Part shown: one piece after another, positions 8,385 through 9,908 of the stretch
Layout of the letters: the number at the start of each line of letters is the position of its first letter
Position numbering within the stretch: the stretch's first letter is position 1
Assembly (NCBI RefSeq): GCF_000412675.1
Contig: NC_021505.1
Coordinates: forward strand, 4,644,501-4,708,500
DNA: 64,000 nt
Source: Pseudomonas putida NBRC 14164
GTDB lineage: Bacteria; Pseudomonadota; Gammaproteobacteria; Pseudomonadales; Pseudomonadaceae
Direction of reading: 5' to 3'
Translations under genes and position numbers: made by a program
The notes under the pieces: generated by a model
What the model was told of the DNA's origin: nothing
The model's input: the letters and a program-made list of their open reading frames with translations, nothing else
Database searches by the model: none

Positions 8385-8514
8385 GGCTCCGGCTCCGGCT
8401 CCGGCTCCGGCTCCGGCTCCGGCTCTTGATCTTGATCTTGATCTTGATCTTGATCTTGATCTTGATCTTGATCTTGATCTTGATCTTGATCTTGATCTTG
8501 ATCTTGATCTTGAT
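8385..8514. repeat. Two abutting hexanucleotide arrays: GGCTCC x6 then CTTGAT x15
   Basis: GGCTCC is repeated six times (8385-8420) and joins, through a GGCTC remnant, a perfect run of 15 CTTGAT units (8425-8514). All frames through it give two-residue polymers (LI, DL or KI), so it is not a credible gene. It forms the left border of palindromic module A. Confidence 0.95.
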
Positions 8515-9130
8515 CTTCGCGACTTCAGGAGGCCGAACGCAGGCCTTGCGAAGGGAGGTGACGGGCATGGATGCCCGTCAAGCGCTGGGCCCCAGGATGG
8601 GGCCTGCAGCGCGGTCCTCCCGGGAGCGAGGCCGGAGTGAGGGAACCCCGGAGCGCAGCGCAGGGGCCGGATGATCGGAGCGCAGCGTTTTTTGGTTACT
8701 TTTTGTCGCGTTTGACAAAAAGTGACTCGCCGTAAGGGCGAAAAGGTGAGTCAGCGTCGCCATCGCAAATGGCCTTTGCGCGAGCTAAAAACCACCACTG
8801 TTTCGCTTTTCGCTTGAAGGCGTGGGCATCAACAATGAGGTCAACATTCATTTCAAAGGTGGCGCGTAGTCACCTTTCCGCCCTTACGGCGGGTCCCTTT
8901 TTGTCGTGGCAAAAAGGAACCAAAAACCGTCCGCTCCCATCATCCGGCCCCTACGCTGCGCTCCGGGGTCCCCTCGCTCCGGGCTTGCTCCCGGGAGGAC
9001 CGCGCTGCAGGCCCCATCCTGGGGCCCAGCGCTTGACGGGCATCCATGCCCGTCACCTCCCTCCGCAAGCCCTGCGCTCGGCCTCCTGAAGTCGCAATCT
9101 GCGTCGCCTGGACTACCGCGCGCTTAGAAG
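8515..9130. repeat. Palindromic repeat module, copy A (616 bp)
   Basis: A large imperfect palindrome. The left arm (about 8519-8755) reads outward as CGACTTCAGGAGGCCGA and reappears as reverse complement at the right (about 8865-9095). The arms contain nested small palindromes such as ACGGGCAT-GG-ATGCCCGT. An unpaired centre of about 110 bp separates them. Copy B repeats it 740 bp later with only a few differences; copy C shares the arms but not the centre. No transposase or intact reading frame is present. Confidence 0.93.
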
Positions 9131-9254
9131 CAAAAGCCGAAGCAAGAGCAAGAGCAAGAGCAAGAGCAAGAGCAAGAGCAAGAGCAAGAGCAAGAGCAAG
9201 AGCAATGAGGCCGTTGATCTTGATCGTGATCTTGACCTTGATCTTGCTTTTGAT
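9131..9254. repeat. Hexanucleotide arrays between modules A and B
   Basis: After CAAAAGCCGA comes a run of about ten GCAAGA units (about 9142-9202), then a short unique stretch and degenerate TTGATC units running into module B. It shows both border types in one place: the right border of A (GCAAGA) and the left border of B (CTTGAT-like). Confidence 0.9.
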
Positions 9255-9870
9255 CTTCGCGACTTCAGGAGGCCGAATGCAGGCCTTGCGAAGGGAGGTG
9301 ACGGGCATGGATGCCCGTCAAGCGCTGGGCCCCAGGATGGGGCCTGCAGCGCGGTCCTCCCGGGAGCGAGGCCGGAGTGAGGGAACCCCGGAGCGCAGCG
9401 CAGGGGCCGGATGATCGGAGCGCAGCGTTTTTTGGTTACTTTTTGTCGCGTTTGACAAAAAGTGACTCGCCGTAAGGGCGAAAAGGTGAGTCAGCGTCGC
9501 CATCGCAAATGGCCTTTGCGCGAGCTAAAAACCACCACTGTTTCGCTTTTCGCTTGAAGGTGTGGGCATCAACAATGAGGTCAACATTCATTTCAAAGGT
9601 GGCGCGTAGTCACCTTTCCGCCCTTACGGCGGGTCCCTTTTTGTCGTGGCAAAAAGGAACCAAAAACCGTCCGCTCCCATCATCCGGCCCCTACGCTGCG
9701 CTCCGGGGTCCCCTCGCTCCGGGCTTGCTCCCGGGAGGACCGCGCTGCAGGCCCCATCCTGGGGCCCAGCGCTTGACGGGCATCCATGCCCGTCACCTCC
9801 CTTCGCAAGCCCTGCGCTCGGCCTCCTGAAGTCGCAATCTGCGTCGCCTGAACTTCCGCGCGCTTAGAAG
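9255..9870. repeat. Palindromic repeat module, copy B (616 bp)
   Basis: Direct repeat of copy A at a constant offset of 740 bp. Visible differences include C/T at 8821/9561, C/T at the GCAAGCC border (9063/9803) and two bases near the right end. Such identity over 616 non-coding bases implies recent duplication or gene conversion. Confidence 0.93.
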
Positions 9871-9908
9871 CCAAAGCAAGATCAAGATCAAGACAAGATC
9901 AAGATCAG
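9871..9908. repeat. Short ATCAAG hexamer array, right border of module B
   Basis: GCAAGATCAAGATCAAG with one broken unit. ATCAAG is the reverse complement of the CTTGAT unit at the left border, so the arrays extend the palindrome. It stops 5 bp before the stop codon of the peroxidase-like gene. Confidence 0.85.

Follow-up and report, generated by a model that had tools for sequence, protein, structure and literature searches.

The window analysed here, a 64,000-nucleotide stretch of the 6.16-Mb chromosome of Pseudomonas putida NBRC 14164 (G000:C1:4,644,501-4,708,500, where G000 denotes this genome), contains three copies (A, B and C) of a large palindromic module, which belongs to a chromosomal, multicopy family without a credible gene. 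The tips of the palindrome are asymmetric: the left (L) end reads CTTCGCGACTTCAGGAGG, and the right (R) end reads ...CTGAACTACCGCGCGCTTAGAAGC and then passes into a tandem array. With the R-end signature as a marker giving each copy a direction, the polarity of the palindromes was found to follow the direction of replication, the fork reaching the R end first. The distinct L and R ends and the replication polarity are new here, as are the concerted evolution of L with L and of R with R arms, the mostly period-six tail arrays with units that differ between loci, the near absence of the family from plasmids and phages and its use as a target by several insertion sequences. In the literature searched, which lay mostly outside subscription papers, no description of this polarity was found.

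Polarity and distribution of the palindromes

The dif core was located once in each of 16 genomes, which are designated, like the loci, by G and L numbers. The dnaA gene was recognised by its reading frame at or near the contig start in G000 (checked with DnaA model TIGR00362, 630 bits) and seven other genomes, and by search in seven more. It was unplaced in G280, and the replichore of G057, whose dnaA lies on another contig than dif, was set by dif alone. The R signature was present in 12 of the 16 related genomes, with 0 to 27 R-end copies per genome and 147 matches altogether. Sixteen of these matches formed symmetric R-R pairs ('-' then '+' within 2.5 kb), which are directionless and were set aside. 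In 130 of the 131 polar copies, from 10 genomes, the R end faces the oncoming fork (G000 7/7, G057 8/8, G091 19/19, G104 19/19, G110 24/24, G173 4/4, G200 4/4, G210 13/13, G268 26/27 and G399 6/6). The count takes in both polar forms of the element (L-loop-R and R-spacer-L, see below). Copies at orthologous sites are not independent, and the safer evidence is that of single genomes such as G110 and G268.

The sole exception, at 3,587,679 in G268, looks like a later inversion between the arms, because its IS481-like insert keeps the genomic side and strand seen in three further copies on that replichore and the segment bearing both ends is reversed. Neighbouring genes do not explain the polarity. 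After removal of four R-R copies, 62 of the 91 genes flanking 46 polar copies were co-directional with the fork, and IS3-family inserts within the arms were found in both directions (six '+' and three '-'). Distance to the origin was calculated for 123 copies, the eight of G057 being left out on account of its separate dnaA contig. The origin-proximal tenth of the way to dif is empty of copies, and the median is at 0.61. The copies are oriented with replication as lagging-strand insertion would predict (130/131), and their replichore-oriented placement away from the origin is also that of a fork-trap (Ter-like) site.

A search of the whole genome and its relatives, suggested in the first-pass annotation of this DNA, returned the multicopy family whose orientation is given above. 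In G000 seven copies have an R end, all on a single strand; five are full-length (A, B, C and those at 4.407 and 5.159 Mb) and two have internal deletions (4.097 and 4.245 Mb). The R signature was detected in 44 of 398 genomes of the genus (a reversed control pattern gave one match in the table) and in 119 stretches of a named collection. Among the 80 of these 119 that were listed, all but three carry Pseudomonas titles (putida, mosselii, soli, fulva, parafulva, monteilii and others), which we take to represent the P. putida group; strain KT2440, the source of the published Ppu-1 model, is absent from these 80. The three other records with an R end (L232, L237 and L252) are titled 'Pantoea sp. 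Ap-967' and are possibly misnamed Pseudomonas. When the 579-bp palindrome was used as query at E <= 0.001, with four candidates scored in each genome, matches, often to the inner arm only, occurred in 132 of 149 genomes of the genus. Order-wide, at E <= 1e-8 and with two candidates scored per genome, nine of 293 genomes matched, and five of these nine, G000 among them, belong to the genus.

Plasmids and phages hardly carry the family: of 72,556 plasmid records a single one contained a 60-bp piece of the palindrome, and 50,697 phage records gave no match. A doublet of repetitive extragenic palindromic (REP) sequences, used as control, likewise matched one plasmid record, whereas relatives of the IS3-family element occur in 578 plasmid records, mostly at 60-80% identity. 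In the draft genome G142, six of the eight copies fetched lie at contig ends, beside the R end (L363, L365 and L367-L370), and these breaks indicate that the palindromes limit assembly.

Architecture, tail arrays and the two forms

The features of the three copies are as follows (window coordinates; TRF, Tandem Repeats Finder).

8384..8517, + strand: copy A left tail array, (CGGCTC)7 then (CTTGAT)n (TRF)
8384-8425: (CGGCTC)7 array (TRF)
8424-8517: (TCTTGA)15.7 array (TRF)
8518..8771, + strand: copy A left (L) arm, with the L end beginning a few bases upstream (inverted repeat, fold, own-genome matches)
8772..8843, + strand: copy A central loop (interval between arms)
8844..9096, + strand: copy A right (R) arm (inverted repeat, fold, own-genome matches)
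9108..9131, + strand: copy A R-end signature, which sets the orientation (pattern match G000:4653608, 1 mismatch)
9141..9205, + strand: copy A right tail array, (AGCAAG)10.8 (TRF)
9214..9257, + strand: copy B left tail array, degenerate TTGATC hexamers (TRF)
9258..9836, + strand: copy B palindrome, L arm, loop and R arm (identity to A, offset repeat)
9848..9871, + strand: copy B R-end signature (pattern match G000:4654348, 1 mismatch)
9877..9907, + strand: copy B right tail array, (CAAGAT)5.3 (TRF)
21713..21823, + strand: copy C left tail array (TRF)
21824..22399, + strand: copy C palindrome (91% identity to A)
22411..22434, + strand: copy C R-end signature (pattern match G000:4666911, 1 mismatch)
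22444..22502, + strand: copy C right tail array (TRF)

Copies A (8474-9137) and B (9214-9877) are 664 bp each, differ by 10 mismatches and are separated by an offset of exactly 740 bp. The first-pass annotation had described two palindromic, array-bordered modules at this offset, and that description holds; its dimensions need correction, since 616 bp is somewhat too short for the full repeat, the arms measure about 250 bp and not 230 bp, and the loop about 70 bp and not 110 bp. Each module is a palindrome with hexamer arrays at its borders. In copy A the inverted arms 8519-8703 and 8911-9095 (185 nt) are 91% complementary, and an inner inverted pair of 55 nt is 80% complementary. Folding of 8518-9096 as single-stranded DNA, which had also been suggested, gave -303.2 kcal/mol, compared with -119 +/- 4.9 kcal/mol for 100 shuffled sequences (z -37.5). 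The palindrome of copy B is 99% identical to that of A across 579 bp. The third copy, C (21713-22502), has the same orientation as A and B.

The earlier statement that the modules contain no credible gene also stands. Four open reading frames (ORFs) of the module gave no match above cut-off against Pfam or NCBIfam, and a coding function was rejected on these sub-threshold matches. No HUH or Y1 transposase domain was detected in the four ORFs, as would be the case for non-autonomous members. A structured RNA family was likewise rejected: the only Rfam match was a cobalamin riboswitch, which adjoins copy C (21438-21658, - strand). Copy C is flanked by divergent called genes, and A and B lie between convergent ones, which encode a DUF2798 protein and glutathione peroxidase.

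Two ARRANGEMENTS were distinguished, with the arms arranged either as L-loop-R, the form present in the window, or as R-spacer-L. In five of the six R-spacer-L copies that were printed, the spacer holds a REP-like doublet as a separate unit. The 18 loci of G104 comprise 10 of the L-loop-R form, seven of the R-spacer-L form and one with the R end only, and 25 of the 27 loci of G268 are R-spacer-L. The form can also differ at one site. Locus L157 of G000 is L-loop-R and L168 of G268, which has the same two flanks, is R-spacer-L; similarly, L162 of G057 is L-loop-R, as against R-spacer-L at L141 of G104 and L169 of G268. Beside the peroxidase gene an R-R copy is found in G065, compared with the L-R copies of G000. 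Downstream of the same gene in G317 (L106), another palindrome, REP-like by eye, replaces the element, so that this intergenic site may be a hot spot.

Arrays were counted with Tandem Repeats Finder in 19 L-loop-R and 27 R-spacer-L copies with clear bounds. The tails of the L-loop-R copies carry arrays on the left in 19 of 19 and on the right in 16 of 19, against five of 184 background windows of the same loci. The period is six in 17 of the 19 left tails and 14 of the 19 right tails; two left tails have periods of 9 and 11, two right tails have a period of 11, and three right tails lack an array. The unit varies from locus to locus (CTTGAT, GCTTTG, TGTTGC and GTTGCC; AAGAGC, AACAGC and CAACGG). 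In the central spacers of R-spacer-L copies the period is 12 in 18 of 27 arrays and 11 in seven, and six just twice; the rule of six therefore belongs to the L-loop-R form. Loops carry arrays as well (14 of 19, periods 6-8), and so do the outer flanks of R-spacer-L copies (18 and 23 of 27, periods 3-12). In the latter, G-rich hexamers such as GGGTTC are often seen on the left and A/C-rich repeats on the right (L170, L172, L173, L185, L187, L189, L151 and L152). Slippage next to the hairpin would be the simplest reading of the arrays.

Concerted evolution and the proposed origin of polarity

The palindromes evolve in concert within genomes, although some of their sites are common to several species. 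Paralogous L arms have mean identities of 98.8% (G000), 96.9% (G057), 96.6% (G104) and 98.0% (G091), and paralogous R arms of 97.5% (G057), 97.3% (G104), 97.4% (G091) and 96.1% (G268). The identity of L with R is 83-91%, and is similar within a locus and across loci. Between genomes (G000, G057, G104 and G268) the means for like arms are 72-93%.

Site sharing was scored strictly, from the flanks directly next to the element and among element-bearing loci already fetched (four of the 24 in G110). For six G000 sites, G057 shares two by both flanks and two by one, G091 three and two, and G104 and G268 one each. G104 and G268 have three sites in common by both flanks, while L357 of G091 and L148 of G104 lie in one region at different spots, and hence are not a shared site. 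Thirteen R-end matches were found in G142, of which 10 were listed and eight fetched, two at contig starts being left out. All eight sites match element sites of G091; the match covers both flanks at two of them and the sole flank present at the other six, and these flanks are 91-95% identical (5-9% different). For the R arms, identity is 97.6% in the two complete orthologous pairs, compared with 97.2% for non-orthologous and 97.4% for paralogous pairs, so that the R arms show no ortholog signal between G091 and G142 despite the divergence of the flanks. Arm uniformity and shared sites together show that homogenisation, or constraint to a common sequence, acts on L and R units separately and not from one arm to the other. 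The possibility of a structure maintained by gene conversion, raised in the first-pass annotation, gains from this within-genome homogeneity at sites partly shared between species.

Copies were also found at REARRANGEMENTS junctions. In G091, the sequences that flank the G000 4.097-Mb site are parted between two copies on opposite sides of dif, at 2,914,117(+) and 1,704,176(-), and the flanks of its G057 counterpart map likewise. The two flanks of L188 in G268 sit in G104 at L147 and L148, copies 30 kb apart. Recombination between copies is the likely cause of these flank rearrangements. Long palindromes are usually thought to be unstable in bacteria; those described here persist at some cross-species sites, evolve in concert and keep a near-uniform orientation. 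They could serve as a natural marker for the birth of repeats at forks, for gene conversion between distant loci and for points where chromosomes break and rejoin.

PMC2267715 (Table 3) lists two P. putida stem-loop families, Ppu-1 (617 bp, 39 copies of which 28 are complete, mainly intergenic) and Ppu-2 (2056 bp, 10 copies, eight complete). The palindrome family is probably the one catalogued there in 2008 as Ppu-1 and Ppu-2, a match by size alone. The 664-bp repeat with its 579-bp palindrome, multicopy and located between called genes, agrees with Ppu-1, and the composites of about 2.05 kb that bear an IS3-family element agree in size with Ppu-2, so that the two are likely the family without and with this insert. 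Unlike the present analysis, the available part of PMC2267715 does not deal with orientation, arrays, forms or evolution of these families.

Like REP doublets forming hairpins (REPINs) and bacterial interspersed mosaic elements (BIMEs), which are linked to REP-associated tyrosine transposases (RAYTs), the family consists of inverted pairs that form hairpins, is multicopy and nearly absent from plasmids, and its arms alternate with two kinds of junction. Unlike REPINs, it has arms of about 180-250 bp, not a 20-40-bp REP unit, together with tail arrays and near-strict polarity; the earlier view of it as larger than REP/BIME, array-bordered and multicopy is supported. In SBW25, tandem arrays of REPs are described as running forward on one side of the genome and in reverse on the opposite side (PMC3116915). 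Tyrosine-transposase genes flanked by long inverted repeats other than REPs are also described, some of them in P. putida and P. fluorescens (PMC3733652). The 320-352-bp repeats of P. fluorescens (R200, R26 and others) are likewise long and intergenic, and a tail-repeat-tail bias is reported for them; Table 3 of that paper lists no inverted arms (PMC2718517). HUH enzymes are coupled to the lagging strand, and elements of the IS200/IS605 type use the lagging-strand template (PMC6006769). Unlike these, the module has no HUH gene, while its orientation bias is that which lagging-strand insertion would give. Further prior work was considered (PMC11439788 and PMC4666352).

The reading favoured here, tentatively and at rather less than an even chance, is that of an old, vertically inherited REPIN-like repeat, dispersed as single strands in a fork-coupled manner and homogenised by gene conversion. 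Behind the polarity that was observed we infer an enzyme and a mechanism. The element would spread like an oversized REPIN: at the replication fork a strand folded by the long palindrome would undergo cutting, copying or movement in trans, and the exposure there of one strand, the lagging-strand template, would fix its orientation at birth. Established copies would then be inherited vertically and homogenised by gene conversion, and replication slippage beside the hairpin would generate the tail arrays. Fork-coupled single-strand dispersal would in this way account for the polarity, and gene conversion for the uniformity.

Several observations weigh against this reading. None of 13 Y1 (RAYT) transposase loci in six genomes (3.2-3.3 kb each) is flanked by arm sequence, the only clear matches there being REPs, and a RAYT-linked repeat was rejected for these loci. 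Neither a target-site duplication nor a guide tetranucleotide was found, the available empty sites (the gpx site, and those of copy C and at 5.158 Mb in G332) being too diverged to place a junction precisely; the comparison of G091 with G142 gave shared sites only. Sites common to species imply that new insertions are infrequent, the empty origin-proximal tenth (0/123) is not predicted by lagging-strand exposure alone, and simple insertion does not explain the occurrence of both forms, even at the same site in different species. Uniformity is also not universal. In G000 the R-R identity is 79.1% (standard deviation, sd, 26), which probably results from R-arm deletions in two copies, and in G268 the L-L identity is just 88.4% (sd 14). 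Constraint on the sequence could likewise keep the arms alike. The earlier proposal of a non-autonomous mobile element is retained as possible, with the reservation that no transposase is linked to the palindromes in the loci read and that sites can be old.

The strongest rival is selection for a polar function, with the palindrome as a chromosomal landmark functional only if R is the end that the fork reaches first, either a fork-pause or fork-trap-like site or one read by a DNA translocase or segregation factor. We consider it unlikely, though the near-total orientation, the depletion near the origin with a median at 0.61 of the way to dif, the sharing of some sites across species and the near absence from plasmids and phages all agree with it, as do the R arms of the two G091/G142 orthologous pairs, which differ by about 2.4% where the flanks differ by 5-9%. 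The range of 0 to 27 R-end copies among related genomes and the presence of the signature in 44 of 398 genomes show, on the other hand, that the element is dispensable, and symmetric R-R copies exist. To our knowledge no factor binds the palindrome, no search for one having been made. A narrower version, in which the copies are landmarks for the replication and segregation machinery of the P. putida group, oriented and kept uniform by selection and gene conversion (for example in a fork-pause system, protein-independent or with an unknown protein, that is permissive when R faces the fork), is the more doubtful of the two. Double-strand transposition targeted to the fork is a further candidate, of low probability. 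Tn7 with TnsE is an example of transposition steered to the clamp and fork with oriented insertion, and a miniature inverted-repeat transposable element of a DDE transposase steered by the sliding clamp or fork would account for polarity, depletion near the origin and long inverted arms. The loci read showed no autonomous relative, however, the transposases inside the arms are separate insertions (the IS3-family one has its own repeats and 3-bp duplication), and there was just the one partial plasmid match.

Polarity might equally improbably be a by-product of recombination, if wrongly oriented copies caused harmful deletions or inversions and were purged, so that copies remain as direct repeats on any one replichore and as inverted repeats across the two. 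The gene-conversion-like uniformity and the copies at rearrangement junctions (the G000 4.097-Mb site, its G057 counterpart and G268 L188) fit such a process, but recombination between direct repeats of one replichore is harmful too, which should leave a modest bias rather than one of 99%, and the G268 copy with the inverted centre persists. A bidirectional terminator or insulator between convergent genes, proposed in the first-pass annotation as a transcript stopper, is very improbable as the defining role. The hairpin is very strong and A and B do sit between convergent genes; orientation nevertheless follows replication and not the neighbours, and among 50 copies with clear bounds (four of them R-R) just 15 lie between convergent genes, seven being divergent, 27 in line and one unknown (in the R-end frame +- 15, -+ 7, -- 21, ++ 6 and unknown 1), as judged by a codon-based gene caller that misses small genes such as DUF2798. 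Terminator-like sites numbered four, against 2.2 +/- 1.6 expected by chance, which is not significant. Transcription may be terminated at the palindromes, but termination does not define the family.

Insertion sequences within the arms

The observation that would have refuted the first-pass annotation, a module occurring only inside a larger transposon, was not made, as the composites of about 2.05 kb that were read consist of the palindrome and an inserted IS3-family element (transposase model 327 bits, cut-off 160). This element was matched in nine of the 10 G091 and G110 loci shown (L049-L052 and L054-L058), always in the L arm at one fixed site, CTCGC-CGT, and in both orientations. The element possesses short inverted repeats of its own, along with a duplication of 3 bp, CGT (read in L049), and shows 63-67% DNA similarity to elements of the ISKpn1 and ISPsy9 families. 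It looks like a palindrome-targeting insertion sequence. A composite transposon was rejected on the grounds of the fixed L-arm site and both orientations, which mark a visitor and not a mobiliser.

An IS481-like element was found in five G268 loci (L169, L178, L181, L184 and L190) at a second, nearly fixed arm site, which lies in the L arm in four loci and in the R arm in the inverted copy L181. Reading frames were present in three of these loci, and the match of 203 bits is under the model cut-off of 224. Several insertion sequences thus use the arms as a target. In L216 (G399) an arm carries a third insertion, at TTTTTTGGT, which has two reading frames. Apparent remnants of an L216-type insertion were seen at the same kind of site in L094 (G298) and in L155, a G000 copy.
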